From Bacteroidaceae bacterium (GTDB taxonomy: Bacteria > Bacteroidota > Bacteroidia > Bacteroidales > Bacteroidaceae): a DNA stretch of 64,000 nucleotides. Location of the stretch: contig JAFTXN010000002.1 of NCBI GenBank assembly GCA_017461605.1, positions 1-64,000 of the forward strand, read 5' to 3'. The notes below the pieces were generated by a model. That model ran no database searches and was not told the origin of the DNA. It worked only from the letters and a program-made list of their open reading frames with translations. This document shows, in pieces, positions 297 to 8,505 of the stretch. The position numbers and the translations under genes were made by a program. How positions within the stretch are numbered: position 1 is the stretch's first letter; each line of letters starts with the position of its first letter.

Positions 297-764
297 ATGT
301 CTGAAAAAGTAATTAAAAATGTATTCGTTAGCCATTATCATGAAGATGAAGGCGGAATTAATGCTATGAAGGATTTATTGGGCGACAAATATTCTATTAG
401 AAATTATTCTGTTACTTCTGATAAATACAATAATGCCAAAAATGAAGACTATATTAAAACTTTATTACGTCCTCTAATTAAAGAAGCAGGTACATTTATT
501 TGTTTAATTGGACCACAAACGCATGATAGCAAATGGGTTGATTGGGAAATTAGAGAGGCCGAACGTCAAGGGAAACAAATTGTTGGCGTTTATAGTCATG
601 GAGCAAAAGATTCTGATATTCCTCCAGCATTAGAAGAATTTGCTGATGCAATTGTGGGCTGGAATACCAATAATATTGAAAGAGCCTTTGGAGGAGAGAG
701 TATTTTTGTAAATTCTGATGGTTCACCACGAGCATCAGTTACAGGTGGTCGTGGCGTTTGTTGA
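297..764 (+). CDS. TIR-like protein of the ThsB/DUF1863 type
   Basis: This 155-residue protein is a single TIR-like domain. It starts with the strand-loop KNVFVSHYHEDE (about 7-18) and has FICLIGPQT (67-75) followed by WVDWEIREA (80-88); Glu84 sits where TIR NADases and Thoeris ThsB carry the catalytic glutamate. ThsB proteins sense phage and make a cyclic ADP-ribose-type signal from NAD; assigning that activity here is inference from fold and motif. It is first in a six-gene cluster in which the last gene encodes a SLOG domain, the signal-sensor fold of Thoeris ThsA. The Nmad2-like gene starts 7 bases after its stop. Confidence 0.8.
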   Translation: MSEKVIKNVFVSHYHEDEGGINAMKDLLGDKYSIRNYSVTSDKYNNAKNEDYIKTLLRPLIKEAGTFICLIGPQTHDSKWVDWEIREAERQGKQIVGVYSHGAKDSDIPPALEEFADAIVGWNTNNIERAFGGESIFVNSDGSPRASVTGGRGVC

Positions 765-771
765 TAAAATT

Positions 772-1386
772 ATGTCAAAAGCTTATTCGTATATAGTTGC
801 TAGAGATTATGGGTTTGCTCCTAATCCATTTTATGGAGTGCTGACATTAGCAACCTGTAAACCAGAAATAAGGAGAACTGCTAATGTGGGAGATATCATC
901 ATAGGATGTTCAAATAAGGCCCATGGAAATAAACTTATCTATATCGCAAAAGTTTCGGAAATATTGACTTTTGATCAATACTGGAATGACCCCCGTTTTA
1001 TCGTCAAGAAACCAGTAATGAATGGTAGCTTGAAGAAACTTTACGGCGATAATATATATCATCACAATGAAGACGGTAAATGGGTACAAGAGGACTCTCA
1101 TCATACTAACGATGATGGAACAACAAATAAACATAACTTGGATAGAGATACAAAACATACTGATAAGGTGTTAGTTTGCAATGAGTTTATCTATTTAGGG
1201 AAGTCTATGATAGATCTTCCTGTTGATTATGATTCTTGTATATATCGAGGAAGGGGATACTGCCATCCACCATATAATGATGCTAAGAAACTTTGGGAGT
1301 ACCTAAAAGTTATGTACCCTGAAGGCGGTAAAATAGACCAACCTAACCAATTCATTCATTTTAAACGTTATGATGGTGTATCATAA
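772..1386 (+). CDS. Nmad2-like (nucleotide-modification-associated) protein
   Basis: This 204-residue protein resembles the Nmad2 family, predicted from comparative genomics to act with DNA-base modifying enzymes. Visible features are the N-terminal strand AYSYIVARDYGFAPNP, a PFYG...LATCKPEIR segment, GDIIIGCSNKA, and a conserved-looking HHTNDDG...HNLDRDT block. No catalytic residues are established for the family. I chose ATG 772 because an in-frame ATG at 718 would overlap the TIR gene by 47 bases. Its 3' end overlaps the next gene by 17 bases, so the two are probably translationally coupled. The family call is from recalled motifs, not a search. Confidence 0.65.
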   Translation: MSKAYSYIVARDYGFAPNPFYGVLTLATCKPEIRRTANVGDIIIGCSNKAHGNKLIYIAKVSEILTFDQYWNDPRFIVKKPVMNGSLKKLYGDNIYHHNEDGKWVQEDSHHTNDDGTTNKHNLDRDTKHTDKVLVCNEFIYLGKSMIDLPVDYDSCIYRGRGYCHPPYNDAKKLWEYLKVMYPEGGKIDQPNQFIHFKRYDGVS

Positions 1387-2356
1387 ATACAGAACTCCAA
1401 TTCCAGATAAACGCATAATGTATTATTATTTCTACTTTATGCAGGAGCGGATGAATATATTTTGGAAAAAATGTAGTAATAATACCTCTCCTTTGACTGA
1501 AGATCCGATATTGAGGGATTATAAGTTTACTAATGTTTATAGAGCTTGTGATCGTGTTAGCCAGTATTTAATCAGCAACGTTATATATAAACATATAGAC
1601 GGATTTACCCCAGAAGATATGTTACTGAGAATATTGGTGTTTAAGATATTCAATAAAATTGAGACATGGGATTATTTGGAGAAAACATATGGAGATATAT
1701 GTATTGAACATTTTGATGTGGAAGAGATCTGTCGGTTATTATCAAACAAACAGAAATCCTATCCTATTTTCAATAATGCTTATATGATGACAGGTAGCCA
1801 TCGTCGTTACGACTATTTACCAAGCAAACATGCTAAATGGCTACAAATGGTGAAAGATGAATTCATAGGTCAAAAAGTGGTGAATAAAATTCTAAAAGCT
1901 GACTCTATGGAAACTATTTTTAATCTAATGGAGCAGTGTTCTTTTGTAGGTGGATTCCTTGCTTACCAATATACTATTGATTTTAATTATTCTCCGTATG
2001 TGAATTTTGATGAAAATTCCTTTGTTAAAGCAGGAATTGGCGCAATAAGAGGAATCAAAAAGTGTTTTAAATTTGTAGGTAATAATTATGAAGATGCTAT
2101 AAAATATACATACGAACATTTAGATGATTTAAGAAATGAATTTGGGTTAGATAGTTTCAAGCCATTACCTGGTAGAGAACCACATTTAATTGATATTCAA
2201 AACTGTTTTTGTGAAACCGATAAATACCTTAGGGTAAAAATGCCAGATCTGCTTGTTGGTAATGTGAGGATAAAACAGCGTTACAAGAAGTCGACAACCC
2301 CAATAGTATATGAATTTCCTCCAAAATGGAATATTTCTCAAAATATCTTTTTATAA
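1370..2356 (+). CDS. Putative DNA base hypermodification protein (HMUDK helical-domain type)
   Basis: This 328-residue protein matches what I recall of the helical, DNA-glycosylase-derived domain associated with 5-hydroxymethyl-uracil DNA kinases and the alpha-glutamyl/putrescinyl-thymine pyrophosphorylases of phages with hypermodified thymine. Signature stretches are MYYYFYFMQERMNIFW near the N-terminus, TEDPILRDYKFTNVYRA, then DRVSQYLISNVIY, and further on GGFLAYQYTIDFNYSP and GAIRGIKKCF. No P-loop kinase motif is visible, so it is the helical module alone. The thymidylate-synthase homologue begins at the base after its stop, which fits a two-step pyrimidine modification pair. Substrate and reaction are unknown. 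Confidence 0.7.
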   Translation: MMVYHKYRTPIPDKRIMYYYFYFMQERMNIFWKKCSNNTSPLTEDPILRDYKFTNVYRACDRVSQYLISNVIYKHIDGFTPEDMLLRILVFKIFNKIETWDYLEKTYGDICIEHFDVEEICRLLSNKQKSYPIFNNAYMMTGSHRRYDYLPSKHAKWLQMVKDEFIGQKVVNKILKADSMETIFNLMEQCSFVGGFLAYQYTIDFNYSPYVNFDENSFVKAGIGAIRGIKKCFKFVGNNYEDAIKYTYEHLDDLRNEFGLDSFKPLPGREPHLIDIQNCFCETDKYLRVKMPDLLVGNVRIKQRYKKSTTPIVYEFPPKWNISQNIFL

Positions 2357-3325
2357 ATGCATACAGAAACATATAGTGGAATCAACTCATTTCTAAAAGG
2401 AGCATGTAAATTGTTACTTTCTGAAGGGGTCAAACGAGTAACTCGTGGTAAGATATGTTATGAATTGCCAGAACCATTTTTATTTAAGTTAACAGAACCT
2501 AAGGCCCGAATTGTTACAATACCAGAACGGAAATGGAATAGGACATTGCCATATGCCGAATCTCTATGGATAGCATCTGGGCGCAATGATTTGCTTTACA
2601 TATGTCATTATTTAGAGAGGATGAGAGACTTCTCTGATGATGGGATGTTTATGCGAGGAGGTTATGGGCCAAGGTTTCGGGACTATAATGGTTCTAATGA
2701 TGATTATCATATTTCCACTATTAATGAACGAAAGCCCAATTCGGTAGATCAATTGAGATATATTGTAAAATGCTTCTCTAACGATATAGAAACAAGACGA
2801 GCGGTTATATCATTAGGAGATCCAATGAAAGATGATTTTGATCAAAGTTGGAATTTAAAAGATTCTAAAGATATTCCTTGTACTAGAGAATTACATTTCA
2901 TAAAACAATCTACTAATAATAAATTAGATTTGATTGTAAAAATGCGATCAAATGATTTAATATGGGGCGCTAGTGCTGTAAATATATTTAACTATACATT
3001 TATGCAAGAATATGTTTCTGCAATATTAGGATTGGAAATAGGCAATTATTATCACTTGGCAGACAATATGCACTATTATGAAGATTTCAAAGATATGATA
3101 AAAGTCATTGCAAACATATCTGAAGTTAATGATGAAGTTATGAATTTTCACAAGTCTTTTACTTCGTTAGAAGAATTTGATGTTTTAGTATCTAAACTGG
3201 GACATGAAGAAAATTTGATGAGAAAAGATATGTCATCATACAAATATGTACAAATGGGAGACGAATTCTTTCAACATTGGTATGATACTCTTTATAAGTA
3301 TAATTTCCAAAAAAATAATAGATGA
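2357..3325 (+). CDS. Thymidylate synthase family protein (possible dUMP hydroxymethylase)
   Basis: This 322-residue protein has thymidylate-synthase family marks: ESLWIASGRNDLLYI near residue 70, GGYGPRFR (101-108), the nucleophile region DIPCTRELHF with Cys175, the phosphate-binding region RSND (197-200), Asn209 where canonical enzymes read uracil, and the HYYED segment near 239. The retained asparagine suggests a uracil rather than cytosine base. Family members either make dTMP or hydroxymethylate the base; in a base-modification cluster the second is attractive but unproven. It differs from housekeeping ThyA outside these motifs. Its stop overlaps the next start (ATGA), showing coupled translation. 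Confidence 0.8.
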   Translation: MHTETYSGINSFLKGACKLLLSEGVKRVTRGKICYELPEPFLFKLTEPKARIVTIPERKWNRTLPYAESLWIASGRNDLLYICHYLERMRDFSDDGMFMRGGYGPRFRDYNGSNDDYHISTINERKPNSVDQLRYIVKCFSNDIETRRAVISLGDPMKDDFDQSWNLKDSKDIPCTRELHFIKQSTNNKLDLIVKMRSNDLIWGASAVNIFNYTFMQEYVSAILGLEIGNYYHLADNMHYYEDFKDMIKVIANISEVNDEVMNFHKSFTSLEEFDVLVSKLGHEENLMRKDMSSYKYVQMGDEFFQHWYDTLYKYNFQKNNR

Positions 3326-4482
3326 TGAGTTTTAAGTATCAACTAATCTTTTTAGGTGATATTCGGAATAAGGCCTATGAAGAAATCAGAGAAGTATTTT
3401 TAGATAAAGTTAAGGATCTTGGCATACAACAAGATGCCATAGAAGTCATATGTGCATCTGATATAAATAAATATTCAAATAAGCAACCTACATTTGCATT
3501 TTATTTAGGGTGCAAGAATAACTCGGGAGTTGATGCCAATATTCTTGAGCAATTAATAAAAAATGGAGATGTTGTATTCCCTCTTTATTTTGAAAATTTT
3601 GAGGATGAAATTCCTAATGTAATAAAAAGTATGAATGGGACCTTATACATTTCCGAGAAAGTATCCGCTGTTGTTAATTGTGCATTAGAATCATTTAGAC
3701 TTCTTAGAAAATCAAGAAGAGTATTTATTAGTTATAAACGATCTGAATCTACAGGAGTTGCTCAACAATTATTTGATTTGCTTATTAGGAATGGTTTTGA
3801 TCCATTTCTTGATTCTTATTCTATTCGTCCTGCAGATAATTTTCAGGAAGAATTACTGCATAGAATGACAGATTCTGATGTGCTGATTCAATTATATACT
3901 CCAGAATTTTTTGAAAGTCAATGGTGTAAAATAGAAGTTGAAGAAGCTAATTTAAAACAAATAGGTGTAGTTGTCCTTTTATGGCCAGATGTAGAGTTAA
4001 AACCATTTTCACACTTAGTTGCTTCTGAGATTTTGACAGAAGACTGTTTTAATGAGAGACAACCAAATGTGATGAGAACTCTTAAATCTGATATAGCTAA
4101 TAAAGTAGTTAAAACGGTTGAATCCATAAGAGCAAGAAATTTAGCAGCAAGACAAGATAGTATTTGTGGTGAATTTGTTGCAGAAGGGATAAAATATGAT
4201 AAACATATCATTCGCGAGTATAGCTACTTGTTAGAGAAAGATATGTATGGTAATAATATTCGTCTGTTTATTCCTGCAATTGGAATTCCACATGCATATG
4301 ATTGCTACGAATCTAGAGCTTTTAGACGGTTATTAGATACAGACGGTTTGGAAATATATTTGCTTTACGACAGTTTGCGTATACGAAAAAAGTGGATAGA
4401 ACATCTAGACTGGCTTAATGAATCTCTTGATGTTAAAACTATAAAAAGAAAAGATTTTGAACTATGGATAAGTCAACATTAG
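3322..4482 (+). CDS. TIR domain protein with extra N- and C-terminal regions
   Basis: This 386-residue protein has a classical TIR domain at about 131-235: SRRVFISYKRS (131-141), GFDPFLDSYSIRP (158-170) and SQWCKIEVEEA (199-209), where Glu205 occupies the catalytic position of TIR NADases. The first 125 residues resemble a degenerate Rossmann or TIR-like module (QLIFLGDIRNKA...FPLYFENFED), and residues 290-386 form an unrecognised domain. Two TIR proteins of different design in one operon is unusual: one may be sensor and one effector, or both may make signals. It overlaps the TS-like gene by four bases and the SLOG gene by 19 bases. Confidence 0.8.
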   Translation: MMSFKYQLIFLGDIRNKAYEEIREVFLDKVKDLGIQQDAIEVICASDINKYSNKQPTFAFYLGCKNNSGVDANILEQLIKNGDVVFPLYFENFEDEIPNVIKSMNGTLYISEKVSAVVNCALESFRLLRKSRRVFISYKRSESTGVAQQLFDLLIRNGFDPFLDSYSIRPADNFQEELLHRMTDSDVLIQLYTPEFFESQWCKIEVEEANLKQIGVVVLLWPDVELKPFSHLVASEILTEDCFNERQPNVMRTLKSDIANKVVKTVESIRARNLAARQDSICGEFVAEGIKYDKHIIREYSYLLEKDMYGNNIRLFIPAIGIPHAYDCYESRAFRRLLDTDGLEIYLLYDSLRIRKKWIEHLDWLNESLDVKTIKRKDFELWISQH

Positions 4483-5057
4483 AATGTATATTTTTATCAG
4501 CAAGCATTCCTGTACAAGGGAGACATGATGAAAGATATATTAATACTGCGGATGTTATTGCTATTAGAGATGCCGTTATTGCATTTGCTTCAGCTATATT
4601 GCCAAAATTTCATTTAGTTTGGGGAGGTCATCCATCCATTACACCATTGATTGTTAATGTAGTTAAGCATTATGGTATAAATGTTAATGAAAATATAACA
4701 TTATACCAATCAAAACAATATGAAGGGCTATTTCCTGTGGAAAATAATAGTATAGGAAATATAATATTAACTGCAAAAGGAGATGATGCTAATGAAAGTT
4801 TATATATAATGAGGCATCAGATGTTATCTAATCATAAATATGTTGCAGGAGTCTTTATAGGAGGTATGAATGGCGTTGAAGATGAGTACAATATGTTTAA
4901 GACTTTACAACCTAAAGCACAACTTATTCCCGTTGCAAGTACTGGAGCTGCTGCAAAAATAATATATGAACGAGAAAAAGAAGAATTAATGTTTAGTGAC
5001 AGATTGGAATCTGATCTAGCTTATTTCTCTTTATTTAAAGATTTGCTAGGCATATAA
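4464..5057 (+). CDS. SLOG-domain protein, Sir2/TIR-associating (STALD) type
   Basis: This 197-residue protein fits the SLOG (Rossmann-like, LOG/DprA-related) family found with TIR and Sir2 proteins. Visible signatures are ECIFLSASIPVQG at 7-19, TADVIAIRDAV at 28-38, the glycine-rich nucleotide loop LVWGGHPSITPL at 51-62, and GVFIGGMNGVEDEY in the second half, followed by PVASTGAAA. In Thoeris ThsA a fused SLOG domain binds the TIR-made signal and switches on a Sir2 NADase. Here SLOG is alone and no Sir2 is encoded, so its partner is likely another protein of this operon. It is the last gene before a long gap. Confidence 0.75.
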   Translation: MDKSTLECIFLSASIPVQGRHDERYINTADVIAIRDAVIAFASAILPKFHLVWGGHPSITPLIVNVVKHYGINVNENITLYQSKQYEGLFPVENNSIGNIILTAKGDDANESLYIMRHQMLSNHKYVAGVFIGGMNGVEDEYNMFKTLQPKAQLIPVASTGAAAKIIYEREKEELMFSDRLESDLAYFSLFKDLLGI

Positions 5058-5341
5058 ATAGGTGATAGTTCTAGATCAATAATCGATTAATTAAAAAACG
5101 AGCGGAATTTATTTTGAAGAAATGAGGCATGATCATACTTAGTGGTACAATCAAAGAGTCTTGTAAACGCTGTATTCCATACACCTATTTGATGCGCCAT
5201 AAATATAATTGGTAGTATTAAATAATAAATAATACTCAAGATTGTGCTCATGATGGCACTAAGTAGACACCAAGATAGAACTAAGTTGGCACCCAGTCGA
5301 TGTGGTTAATAATTATCAGAAAAGAGACATCTATAATATCA
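5058..5341. other. AT-rich intergenic stretch after the TIR/SLOG operon
   Basis: I see no gene here. Three degenerate copies of a CTAAGTnG(G/A)CACC-like word lie near 5138-5150 (reversed), 5255-5270 and 5281-5295. They could be a decayed insertion-sequence end, but no transposase remains. Confidence 0.3.
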
Positions 5342-5487: not shown

Positions 5488-5808
5488 ATGGCGAAGAGTA
5501 CAATGGGGACTAAATTGCCCCGAAAGTTGGAGCAGAAAATGCAGATTGTTGGCGAGCAAATAAAACTTGCCCGTTTGCGTCGTAATTTGAGTGTTGCGCA
5601 GGTGGCGGAGCGTGCTACTTGTTCGCCACTTACGGTATCACGCATAGAGAAAGGTGCGTCAACGGTGGCAATTGGCATCTATCTACGTGTGTTGTATGCA
5701 CTGCAACTTGATGATGATATTCTCTCATTAGCAAAAGATGACGAACTCGGCAGGGCATTGCAGGATATGAATTTACCCCAACGTGAAAGAGCATCTAAAA
5801 AAGAGTAA
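5488..5808 (+). CDS. HTH XRE-family antitoxin, HipB-like
   Basis: This 106-residue protein carries a Cro/C1-type helix-turn-helix: GEQIKLARLRRNLSVAQVA (about 23-41) then CSPLTVSRIEKG with GASTVAIGIYLRVLYAL. Its length and fold match HipB-like antitoxins, which bind operator DNA and the HipA kinase. The kinase gene begins 6 bases after its stop, the standard antitoxin-toxin order. Base composition is less AT-rich than in the flanking genes, so this module probably entered separately. An ATG at 5503 is an alternative start. Confidence 0.8.
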   Translation: MAKSTMGTKLPRKLEQKMQIVGEQIKLARLRRNLSVAQVAERATCSPLTVSRIEKGASTVAIGIYLRVLYALQLDDDILSLAKDDELGRALQDMNLPQRERASKKE

Positions 5809-5814
5809 TTTGCT

Positions 5815-7077
5815 ATGAAGCAGTTGTATGTATATGCCGATTTTGATTGGCTCAAGGAGATTGAGTTGGTTGGAGAACTTGGCTACGAATCGCTTCGTGG
5901 CTCGGATAGTTATAGTTTCAAGTTTGCCGATAGTTGGATAAAAAAATATAATGCCATCGTTCTCAGCGATGATTTGAATAACTACCCAGGCATTCAATAT
6001 ACTCAGCCGAATAAAGATATTTTCGGATGCTTTGCTGATGCTCTGCCCGACAGATGGGGAAGAACCCTTCTCCTCCGTCGTGAACAAATTTTGGCACAAG
6101 AGGATAACAGACCTATTCGCCGCCTCTCGTCGTTTAACTTCTTAACTGGAATTGATGACTTTTCCCGTATGGGCGGGTTTCGTTTCAGGGAAACTCCTGA
6201 TGGAGAGTTTATAAACGCGGACAGCTCTTTGCGTATTCCACCGTTGACTGACTTACGTAAACTCATTGCAGCGAGTAAGGAGATTGAGAAAAGTGAGGAT
6301 GCTAATACCCTCCCCGAAAAACGATGGATTGCTCAACTTGTGCAGCCGGCTTCTTCGCTCGGTGGTGCTCGTCCCAAAGCAAATGTTGTAGATACGGACC
6401 GCAGTATATATGTCGCAAAGTTCCCATCATTGAAGGATGATTATGATGCAGGACTATGGGAACATTTCTGCCATATATTAGCCAAAAATGCGAGCATAAA
6501 CGCAGCCGAAACAAAGGTTATATTGACGAATGATAAATACCACACACTGCTTTCTCGTCGTTTTGACAGAACAGATGACGGCAAACGAATTCACTTTGCA
6601 TCGGCAATGACATTGCTTGGATTGAACGATGGTGACAATGCAACAACAGGTAACGGCTATTTGGATATTGTTGATTTTATCATTAGCGGTTGTACCGATG
6701 TTGATGCAAACTTACGAGAGCTATTCCGCAGAGTGGCATTCAATATATGCGTAGGCAATAGCGATGATCATTTCCGTAACCACGGTTTTCTGCTCACCGC
6801 AAAAGGCTGGACACTATCGCCTGCATACGATATGAACCCAACGCTGAATGACCATCAAAGTTTGCTAATTAACAGCAAGACCAACGAATCTGATTTGTCG
6901 ATTTTGATCAACTCTTGCGAGGAGTATATGCTCACCCCAGAGGTTGCAAAGAGTATCATCTATGAGGTTGCAACTGCTGTCAAGGATTGGAGAGTATTAG
7001 CAAATAGATTAGGTATTGCCAAGAGAGAAATGACGTTGTTTGAAGGAGTGTTTGATAACAGGATAGATGTTAATTAA
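5815..7077 (+). CDS. HipA-family serine/threonine kinase toxin
   Basis: This 420-residue protein has the HipA plan. An N-terminal subdomain with FADALPDRWGR (73-83) leads to the Gly-rich loop SSLGGARPK (180-188), equivalent to the autophosphorylation loop of HipA, then ATP-site Lys202 in YVAKFPS. The catalytic loop is GNSDDHFRNHG (314-324) and the metal-binding motif SPAYDMNP (335-342). HipA kinases phosphorylate translation targets such as glutamyl-tRNA synthetase and cause growth arrest; the target here is unknown. All key residues look intact, so the toxin may be active. It follows the HTH gene by 6 bases and likely shares its autoregulated promoter. Confidence 0.88.
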   Translation: MKQLYVYADFDWLKEIELVGELGYESLRGSDSYSFKFADSWIKKYNAIVLSDDLNNYPGIQYTQPNKDIFGCFADALPDRWGRTLLLRREQILAQEDNRPIRRLSSFNFLTGIDDFSRMGGFRFRETPDGEFINADSSLRIPPLTDLRKLIAASKEIEKSEDANTLPEKRWIAQLVQPASSLGGARPKANVVDTDRSIYVAKFPSLKDDYDAGLWEHFCHILAKNASINAAETKVILTNDKYHTLLSRRFDRTDDGKRIHFASAMTLLGLNDGDNATTGNGYLDIVDFIISGCTDVDANLRELFRRVAFNICVGNSDDHFRNHGFLLTAKGWTLSPAYDMNPTLNDHQSLLINSKTNESDLSILINSCEEYMLTPEVAKSIIYEVATAVKDWRVLANRLGIAKREMTLFEGVFDNRIDVN

Positions 7078-7128: not shown

Positions 7129-8505
7129 ATGATAACGATATATCTAGATAAACAAGTCTTTAGTCATTTATTTAATGCAAGAGAGGAAAAGTATTCGCTC
7201 TTACGTGATAAGATATTATCTCATAAGGACGAATTTATCTTCTTTTATTCAAATGCGCATTTATTTGATTTGCAAGATGATAAAACCGACATTAAATATG
7301 CAGAAATGGAGTTTATGCAATCTATTGTTGATGGGAATAGATTAATCTATGAGTTTCCTAGACAAGAAGTGATGAAACAATCTCCACGTGAAGCCTTTGA
7401 AACTGTTGGTAAGGTAGGAGATTTTTCATGGCTTGACAATTTTGATGTTTCTCAACTAACAGATGAACAACTGAATGCAATAAATAACATTGTTGATATT
7501 AGCATTAAGGATTTAAAAGGTGAACTGGATTTTAACTGGTTGACAAATAGAATACCGATTTCGGCAAATGAGTTGCAAGTAGATGTGCCAATTTTTAAAT
7601 CTCTAATGAATTTTATAGCATATAATTTTTACGAAAATAAGAATGCTTATAAACAGGTACGAGATAATACTATAGCGAGATATAACCCTAAGGAGATTAA
7701 AGCGAATGGAGAAGATGTATTCAATGAGCAATTGTCATCGTCGCCACTAGGATTGTCGTTTATAGAGACAATTAAAGCAACTTTGGCTCAAACAGGCTTG
7801 TCTTCTTCAGATTCAGCAATTGTCTATTATATGTCTTATATGTTACTTGATTTATTCGGAGTGAATAAAGAAGCTCGAAAGAAAGTTAAGTTTCAAAATA
7901 TGCAAGCAGATTGCTGTCATAGTTTTTTCGGCTCTTATTGTGATTGCATAGTCAGTGATGATGAAGGACTACGCCTCAAAAGTAAAACATTATATAAGTT
8001 GTTTAATTTTGGCACCATGGTGTATTCAATAGATGAGTTCATCGAAAGATTCGATGAGGCAATTAATAATAACAAGAAATCTGGTCGTAAATATTTTGAT
8101 GAAATTTTTAACGATTATATTGCAAGACAAATACTAAGAACAGAAATAACACCAGAGCATACTTTAACTTATTTGAATACATCTAATAAATTCTTCGGAT
8201 ACTTTAATTGTATGATAGAAAGAAAATCAGACAATGAAACGGTTATAATTCTTCATAAGAATAACGATTTAAATCAGCCTATGCTTGTCAGAGAAATAGA
8301 AATCATAGTCAATAGGATGGTTAAAGTATTTAATGATATGGGGGCAAATTTTACATTGTTTGATGAAGCAGTGGAACTTCCTCAATTGAAGGCTGATAAC
8401 TGGAATAGAATATTAGTACTAAATGATGCGGATATTTGCTTAACCAAATTCAAAGAGACTCCAATGCTATGCTTATGGATTAAGTTGAAACAGCCAATAA
8501 TATAA
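7129..8505 (+). CDS. Large PIN-like domain protein of unknown function
   Basis: This 458-residue protein begins with IYLDKQVFSHLF and FFYSNAHLFDLQDD, and later has YCDCIVSDDEGLRLKSKTLY followed by FGTMVYSIDEFI. Spaced acidic residues at strand ends, a short N-terminal strand with Asp, and a late VSDDE segment resemble PIN-type nucleases, with a large helical insert between. The last 120 residues are a separate, unrecognised region. It is very AT-rich, like the TIR operon, and follows hipA by 51 bases on the same strand. PIN nucleases often act as toxins or defence effectors; that role is inferred and the fold assignment is tentative. Confidence 0.5.
   Translation: MITIYLDKQVFSHLFNAREEKYSLLRDKILSHKDEFIFFYSNAHLFDLQDDKTDIKYAEMEFMQSIVDGNRLIYEFPRQEVMKQSPREAFETVGKVGDFSWLDNFDVSQLTDEQLNAINNIVDISIKDLKGELDFNWLTNRIPISANELQVDVPIFKSLMNFIAYNFYENKNAYKQVRDNTIARYNPKEIKANGEDVFNEQLSSSPLGLSFIETIKATLAQTGLSSSDSAIVYYMSYMLLDLFGVNKEARKKVKFQNMQADCCHSFFGSYCDCIVSDDEGLRLKSKTLYKLFNFGTMVYSIDEFIERFDEAINNNKKSGRKYFDEIFNDYIARQILRTEITPEHTLTYLNTSNKFFGYFNCMIERKSDNETVIILHKNNDLNQPMLVREIEIIVNRMVKVFNDMGANFTLFDEAVELPQLKADNWNRILVLNDADICLTKFKETPMLCLWIKLKQPII

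Follow-up and report, generated by a model that had tools for sequence, protein, structure and literature searches.

Why does a bacterial operon carry genes of TIR signalling next to genes of pyrimidine chemistry? This question is raised by the start of a 64,000-nt stretch of DNA (hereafter the window) from a Bacteroidaceae bacterium (GenBank assembly GCA_017461605.1, contig JAFTXN010000002.1), in which six intact open reading frames (ORFs), all on the + strand, overlap or abut between positions 297 and 5057. They encode, in this order, a ThsB-like TIR protein (TIR1), Nmad2, a protein with the HMUDK_hel domain (HEL), an enzyme of the thymidylate synthase (TS) superfamily, a second TIR protein (TIR2), and a SLOG protein (Table 1). 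Each of the six proteins matches a Pfam family above Pfam's cut-offs, which bears out the families named in a preliminary description of this DNA. That description treated all six genes as one system. We find that TIR1, Nmad2, HEL, and TS make up a conserved core, and that TIR2 and SLOG are one of several outputs attached to it. With some reservation, we favor the view that the operon is an anti-phage system of the Thoeris type, modular in build and acquired by horizontal transfer, with the core as input and an exchangeable output.

TIR1 belongs with the chemistry genes

Related loci were collected by scanning genome contigs with the HEL alignment; the best 80 of 264 relatives were used, and the locus profiles were built from these same loci. 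The window and L006 (taken from the viral collection; its gene set is the same as that of a Parabacteroides plasmid) were added, L005 replaced L012, which lies on the same contig, and L039 was dropped, giving 81 loci. In L039, a Candidatus Absconditabacteria contig, HEL is readable only in fragments under table 11, presumably because of the other genetic code of that phylum. After merging HELs that are 95% alike (L013, L055, and L090 were dropped), 78 loci were left.

TIR1 or Nmad2 is present in 39 of these 78 loci. Both genes were found in 36, TIR1 only in one (L026, a 3-kb contig), and Nmad2 only in two, namely L025, where Nmad2 has a 150-aa neighbor without a Pfam match, and L080, where the TIR1 ORF is short. 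TIR1 is followed by Nmad2 on one strand and at a distance of no more than 20 nt in 34 of the 36 loci holding both, and HEL is followed by TS, again on the same strand and within 20 nt, in all 27 TS loci among the 39 (a count that includes L046). Several bacterial phyla have versions of the operon in which individual parts are exchanged. The proposed link between TIR signalling and pyrimidine chemistry was borne out by a gene order that is conserved in many genomes. When scored with the TIR1 profile, the TIR1 proteins of the core reached at least 182 bits, except for the short TIR1 of L080 (138 bits), and the TIR proteins of five SLOG loci described below (L202-L206) scored 20-69 bits. The conserved link is TIR1-Nmad2-HEL-TS, and TIR1 belongs with the chemistry genes.

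The position of TS within this core can be filled by other enzymes. Every one of the 39 loci carries TS, a radical-SAM/SPASM enzyme (rSAM), or MazG, and only L046 has two of them. HEL is followed by rSAM within 20 nt in seven of the eight rSAM loci, the eighth being L046 with its TS and a distant rSAM. In the remaining five loci MazG is located upstream of HEL, in two of them not adjacent to it. A single locus with none or two of these enzymes was observed, compared to a permutation mean of 16.9 (0/20000 as low), and three changes suffice to place the enzyme label on the tree of HEL (shuffled mean 11.4; 0/300 as low), bearing in mind that kinship among the sequences makes both the permutation and the tree shuffles optimistic. 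The CxxxCxxC cysteines of rSAM are kept in 11/11 sequences, and many MazG residues are kept in 31-34 of 34. An assignment of rSAM as viperin was rejected, as the enzyme matches PADLOC pVip only weakly (5e-13) and its top NCBIfam hits, which are PqqE-like, fall far below their cut-offs.

The other 39 loci have neither TIR1 nor Nmad2. XRE/IrrE/c9 genes lie around HEL in 11 of them, mostly together with MazG, and c9 turned out to be a divergent TS-superfamily protein (hhalign profile comparison, probability 96.7). This XRE-IrrE-c9-HEL-MazG/TS class is spread over several phyla (L043, L058, L061, L073, L075, L083, L089, L220, and L221). A further 17 are cyanobacterial HEL-DUF1643-MazG loci, many of them with a dCTP-deaminase-like (DCD) gene, as in L042, L045, and L060. 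In a wider HEL tree, a quick one with long viral branches for which 16 viral HELs were chosen and 12 of the 17 cyanobacterial-class loci omitted, the loci with TIR1/Nmad2 do not form a single clade, and the starred branches of this tree force at least four changes.

TIR2 and SLOG are a separable, putative output

Against the NCBIfam models for type III Thoeris, TIR2 scored 359 bits (ThcB4, NF058526, cut-off 220) and SLOG 225 bits (ThcA, NF058525, cut-off 110), in agreement with the earlier view of the two as a Thoeris-type pair. TIR2 also matches the PADLOC ThsB model PDLC00434 (E 1.1e-97), and Glu205, to which attention had been drawn before, is invariant in 8/8 relatives. In SLOG, GG54-55 and G133-G134-G137-E141 are likewise kept in 8/8 relatives; a PDB search with its sequence returned nothing credible. 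The number in the name ThcB4 implies further ThcB TIR genes, models for which were not seen. We regard TIR2 as a putative effector and SLOG as a putative signal receptor.

The ThcB4/ThcA pair accompanies the core in 6 of the 39 loci, the window included; these belong to Bacteroidales, Flavobacteriales, and a Fibrobacter genome, and their gene orders differ. Within 6 kb, some TIR-SLOG gene was detected in 18 core loci, the membrane protein c12, for which hydropathy predicts one or two segments, in 12, and c22 in 6, with overlap between the classes. The c22 member of L011 matches PADLOC PDC-M50A. Our own profiles found no TIR-SLOG gene over this distance in 21 loci, some of which are cut by contig ends. 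Five core loci have neither TIR-SLOG nor c12 nor c22: L038 carries SLATT_3/SLATT_1, L032 a TPR-S protein, L026 and L035 extend only a little past the core, and L025 shows no output gene. L046 and L047 contain TIR-SLOG fusions, and these support the view that the separate TIR2 and SLOG proteins of the window function jointly. On the HEL tree the output label needs 10 changes (shuffled mean 13.7; 1/300 as low) when 34 of the 39 loci are considered, with the five lacking a labelled output left out and the two-output loci L014 and L052 labelled TIR-SLOG. The presence of ThcA/ThcB4 is scattered (five changes, shuffled mean 5.7; 73/300 as low).

We also approached the locus from its individual families. 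Among 395 genomes of the phylum (apparently one set), LD_cluster3, the family of SLOG, was found in 6, Nmad2 in 14, and HEL in 7; HMUDK_hel is rare also within the order (2/295 genomes). Only the genome of the window has all three. HEL and Nmad2 were not detected in the five other LD_cluster3 genomes, nor was the core present in the stretches fetched from them. Their SLOG loci (L202-L206) do carry TIR genes, which match the TIR2 profile in four cases, the fifth being cut by a contig end. As 33 of the 39 core loci lack ThcA/ThcB4, core and TIR2/SLOG each occur apart, and we rejected the idea of six genes as an indivisible, co-conserved unit. TIR2 and SLOG are a separable and exchangeable output, one of several.

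In 5 of the 14 Nmad2 genomes TIR1 adjoins Nmad2. Two of these five are TIR1-Nmad2-MazG loci (L207, on a 3.6-kb contig, and L208, where TIR and SLATT genes come next), and a genome-wide search found no HEL in either. For the other nine, TIR1 was not seen beside Nmad2 in the fetched stretch. In L211 (8380-9845), an Nmad2 of another lineage adjoins Nmad3 in a stretch that contains neither TIR1 nor HEL, and several other TIR1-free Nmad2 neighborhoods resemble it by eye. In the phylum set, four genomes have HEL but not Nmad2, and two of them were fetched.

Candidate functions of the core proteins

TIR1 matches the PADLOC ThsB model PDLC00418 over residues 5-155 (E 6.3e-52), and its Glu84 is invariant in 42/42 relatives. 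Weak matches were obtained to the solved chains 8wcf, 8fz9 (TIR), 9b7d (ThsB1), and 6lhy, and no NCBIfam model matched at E 0.01. The C-terminal Cys of the family (residue 155 in the window) is kept in 38/42 proteins. We consider TIR1 a putative maker of an NAD-derived signal. For Nmad2, a putative sensor or adaptor, a PDB profile search gave no credible solved relative. Nmad2 may be a PUA/EVE-like base reader, an idea that received no support from the searches made here.

TS is most similar to the MilA CMP 5-hydroxymethylases among solved structures (E 7e-23), followed by classical TS (1.2e-7). Cys175 and Asn209 are present as previously described and, together with Arg197-Ser198, Asp200, His239, and Tyr241, are invariant in 34 aligned bacterial sequences. 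In 48 viral sequences the Cys is always kept, and the position of Asn209 is occupied by Asn in 41 and by Asp in 7. For TS and dCMP hydroxymethylase, Asn or Asp at this position distinguishes uracil from cytosine as substrate. The printed alignment shows Asn in the window TS where MilA has Asp, an indication of uracil, not cytosine, as substrate. TS is thus predicted to be a dUMP C5-hydroxymethylase-like enzyme, with the proviso that sequence alone does not split TS from hydroxymethylase; the available text of PMC5977210 likewise cautions that it is difficult to distinguish hydroxymethyluridylate synthases from thymidylate synthases by sequence. A housekeeping thymidylate synthase was rejected as an explanation for this gene, because a 264-aa protein encoded elsewhere in the genome aligns as ThyA (a call based on alignment, with no family search run on that protein).

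The window HEL matches PF18723 only, and Pfam detected no kinase domain in it. The earlier designation as an HMUDK-helical DNA-base protein holds for the helical domain; since this domain stands alone, "HMUDK" should not be read as kinase. A PDB profile search found no solved relative of HEL. Its invariant residues include R27, N55, R58, D61, N95, D204, C281, E282, and K285 in 64 chosen sequences (alignments A3 and A4, although listed with 152 and 39 references, were built from 64 and 32 selected sequences). Among the HELs scanned for domains, those of three bacterial loci (L040, L059, and L220) are fused to a thymidylate-kinase domain.

Relatives of HEL were found in 452 phage records. For viral contigs we used the best 80 of 102 HEL loci, from which L091, L101, and L103 were dropped as repeats of L006-L008. 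Of 71 non-redundant viral loci, 43 have TS no more than 3 kb from HEL, 20 of them no more than 300 nt away, and none of the 71 contains TIR1 or Nmad2. Viral contig L092 (6441-9984) encodes a fusion of HEL with a group 1 glycosyltransferase, directly followed by a TS gene. Phage DNA can incorporate 5-hydroxymethyl-deoxyuridine (5hmdU), which a 5hmdU DNA kinase then phosphorylates, according to the available part of PMC6449724. Taken together, the TS residues, the likeness to MilA, the viral HEL-TS pairs, the fusions, and the phage literature make a 5-hydroxymethyl-dU-type product plausible.

A member of an AlkB-type 2-oxoglutarate (2OG)-Fe(II) oxygenase cluster was seen beside or near HEL in L028 (9333-10942), L036 (7918-10942), and L085 (9932-11682), which represent two Segetibacter genomes and one Mucilaginibacter genome (Pfam was run on L028 and L085). 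It is possible that such an oxygenase offers another route to oxidized thymine.

A relative in Escherichia coli

Comparison of the window DNA with E. coli genomes gave no match. The DNA of a Marinobacterium TIR1-Nmad2 part, on the other hand, matches 16 of 5426 E. coli genomes, and in the same 16 a core of TS, a 185-aa DNMK-type kinase, HEL, TIR1, and Nmad2 was recovered at a query coverage of at least 80%. The kinase, which lies beside TS and HEL, matches DNMK with E 2.8e-10. A convergent operon with a c12-like gene, two TIR genes, a TIRSLOG2-like gene, and SLOG2 (labels as in L171 and L172) is present in these 16 genomes and in no other, so that at megablast level neither part occurs without the other. 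Twelve copies are at least 99% alike, and four are near 94-95%. All three annotated regions viewed have mobC and type IV secretion system (T4SS) genes nearby. Single copies of the core (by IS1) and of the output operon are interrupted by insertion sequences (IS) in NZ_CP082056.1 and NZ_CM194533.1.

The available text of PMC13092281 (2026) counts thymidylate synthase and 5-hydroxymethyluracil kinase as defense domains newly validated in E. coli and credits its reference 59 (Burroughs 2015) with predicting several related domains in defense. The legend to its figure of validated anti-phage systems lists TS, dNMPk, 5hmdUk, and NMAD. We infer that these four abbreviations denote one system and that the E. 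coli locus is this system. The earlier statement that the two halves had not been described as one system needs qualifying: the components abbreviated in PMC13092281 are present in the E. coli relative, and no paper describing the operon with ThcA/ThcB4 was found among the top-ranked literature matches listed.

The locus in its genome

The six genes are listed in Table 1. For Nmad2, the mechanical ORF opens at 718; we chose the ATG at 772, with whose residue 1 the Pfam match starts. The window begins where the contig begins, so the true 5' limit of the operon lies outside the view. Just upstream of the TIR1 start, a TAACTTTG box was spotted by eye at 271-278, which we take to resemble the Bacteroides -7 promoter consensus. 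The G+C content of the first 5 kb is 30-35%, versus 54-58% at 10-16 kb of the same contig, and points to an acquired island.

Table 1. Genes of the operon in the window, with their family assignments
Gene	Position	Strand	Description
TIR1	297-764	+	ThsB-like TIR, 155 aa; PF08937 (ThsB_TIR) E 1.7e-20; core member
Nmad2	772-1386	+	204 aa; PF18753 E 1.2e-62; adjoins TIR1
HEL	1370-2356	+	stand-alone HMUDK_hel, 328 aa; PF18723 E 3.6e-84, residues 16-294
TS	2357-3325	+	TS-superfamily enzyme, 322 aa; PF00303 (Thymidylat_synt) E 5.8e-16
TIR2	3322-4482	+	ThcB4-like TIR, 386 aa; Pfam TIR_2 E 3.3e-15, residues 134-228
SLOG	4464-5057	+	ThcA-like, 197 aa; PF18180 (LD_cluster3) E 1.5e-57

Downstream of the operon, genes for an HTH protein and a HipA-like protein (HipA_C E 8e-46) were found at 5488-7077, followed at 7129-8505 by a gene for a 458-aa protein, in a low-G+C stretch, without a Pfam match at E 0.05. 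In L005 the region downstream of the sister operon (552-5187) encodes a KAP NTPase, a weak, sub-cut-off QueC-like protein, and a TatD DNase; this set presumably resembles a Qat system.

Proposed mechanism and alternatives

The operon is probably an anti-virus system, and a modification of thymidine nucleotides or of thymine is the best explanation for the input to an abortive infection response. TS would make a 5-hydroxymethyl-dUMP-type pyrimidine nucleotide from dUMP, and HEL, whose domain accompanies such enzymes in phages, may act on this product, in DNA or as a nucleotide. Nmad2 could serve as an adaptor coupling the state of the modified thymidine to TIR1. Infection would disturb this state, either because the phage DNA carries the mark or is free of it, or through a changed thymidine-nucleotide pool. 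TIR1 would then cleave NAD+ to a cyclic-ADP-ribose-type signal, ThcA (SLOG) would bind it and switch on ThcB4 (TIR2), and ThcB4 would drain NAD+ and halt the infected cell. By analogy with Thoeris, in which ThsB is paired with the SIR2-SLOG protein ThsA (available parts of PMC11204291 and PMC7272460), TIR1 as signal maker and ThcA/ThcB4 as executor is the most likely assignment. How Thoeris TIR proteins recognize infection is called unknown until recently in the available text of PMC12578639, which reports a capsid-sensing case. In its boldest form, the mechanism would be a thymidine modification made by the host (by TS, rSAM, or MazG routes, with HEL) and read via Nmad2 by a dedicated TIR, which converts correct or incorrect thymidine into an NAD-derived alarm for interchangeable outputs (ThcA/ThcB4, TIR-SLOG, SLATT, or transmembrane (TM) proteins). 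We consider this form less likely than not.

Several observations weigh against this mechanism or limit the evidence for a modular defense system. The idea of a single common product is weakened by the loci in which MazG or rSAM takes the slot of TS, and the TIR1-Nmad2-MazG loci without HEL indicate that HEL-dependent DNA marking is not general. TIR1 may yield a different product, or no product at all. The output label retains some phylogenetic signal, which makes exchange frequent, not free. The island DNA of E. coli is nearly identical among its carriers, and the co-occurrence of core and output there amounts to linkage in two lineages, not to 16 independent cases. Finally, "TIR" is absent from the available main text of PMC13092281, and the match to its system rests on the abbreviations in the legend.

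Among the alternatives, the one that survives best is self-marking, in which TS and HEL modify host thymine, Nmad2 reads the mark, TIR1 fires on unmarked foreign DNA, and abortive infection takes the place of a nuclease. The viral HEL-TS pairs and the HEL-glycosyltransferase fusion agree with it, as do the conserved catalytic residues of TS and the three loci in which an AlkB-type oxygenase near HEL might oxidize the base in situ. It stays doubtful, since TIR1-Nmad2-MazG exists without HEL, the operon has no polymerase or pool-purging enzyme, and Nmad2 as a reader is conjecture.

Alternatively, the pyrimidine could be part of the messenger itself: TIR1 would join ADP-ribose to an unusual pyrimidine nucleotide, or act beside it, and SLOG or TM outputs would read the product. 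Enzymes acting at the nucleotide level are common in HEL operons (TS, MazG, DUF1599, dCTP-deaminase-like proteins, and TMP/dNMP kinase), and SLOG and SLATT families are known or predicted to be nucleotide-gated. This is unlikely, as ThcA/ThcB4 occur elsewhere without these enzymes and their ligand need not be pyrimidine-based. The occurrence of HEL and TS relatives in phage and viral records would also fit a decoy, with chemistry genes that sense phages carrying modified thymidine or its enzymes, and TS and HEL binding instead of catalyzing. The conservation of the TS active site, of the rSAM cysteines, and of many MazG residues, and the sharing of one role by three unrelated enzymes, make such a decoy quite improbable. 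That a type III Thoeris pair merely came to lie beside an unrelated nucleotide-modification cassette in one defense island is very unlikely: ThcA/ThcB4 do exist without the core and are scattered on the HEL tree, but they join it in different orders in several groups, TIR2 overlaps TS in the window, 18 core loci have some TIR-SLOG gene, and TIR1 stays in the core (in HEL-anchored loci; no TIR1-anchored search was made, and TIR1 may occur elsewhere).

If the proposed mechanism with its host-made thymidine modification is true, restriction-modification logic is wired here to abortive infection by nucleotide signals. Because its TIR gene is linked to enzymes of thymidine modification, and because the slots for enzyme and output can be exchanged, the operon provides a genetic handle on a trigger that would lie in DNA or nucleotide chemistry. 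It also suggests that hosts took over relatives of phage base-modification enzymes for immunity. The operon would represent a novel combination within a type of defense that is only now being recognized.

Comparison with known systems

The six window proteins match no nuclease or methyltransferase (Pfam, PADLOC) and no kinase (Pfam), which sets the operon apart from restriction-modification systems. Like type I Thoeris, it combines a ThsB-like TIR with SLOG. In contrast to type I, the six proteins contain no SIR2 match (Pfam, PADLOC), ThsA models match the window SLOG only at E 0.0055 or worse (PADLOC), SLOG is a separate LD_cluster3 protein, and a TIR protein would take the place of the effector. 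With type III Thoeris it shares SLOG and TIR2, which both pass the equivalog cut-offs, in a comparison based on the NCBIfam models and their names. The differences are TIR1 and the chemistry genes, which the window adds, whereas L202-L206 have other TIR genes and lack Nmad2, HEL, and TS. With the thymidine hypermodification of phages M6, ViI, and phi W-14 (5hmdU and 5hmdU DNA kinase; available part of PMC6449724), the operon shares HEL relatives and the position of HEL beside TS, but the window HEL has no kinase domain, replication genes are missing, and TIR and Nmad2 are attached. The DefensePredictor system of PMC13092281, as far as its available text goes, differs in that the window has no kinase gene and adds ThcB4/ThcA; common to the window and E. 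coli is that the TS, HMUDK_hel, and NMAD families stand together, and the E. coli relative of the window operon also has the dNMP kinase and a TIR1.

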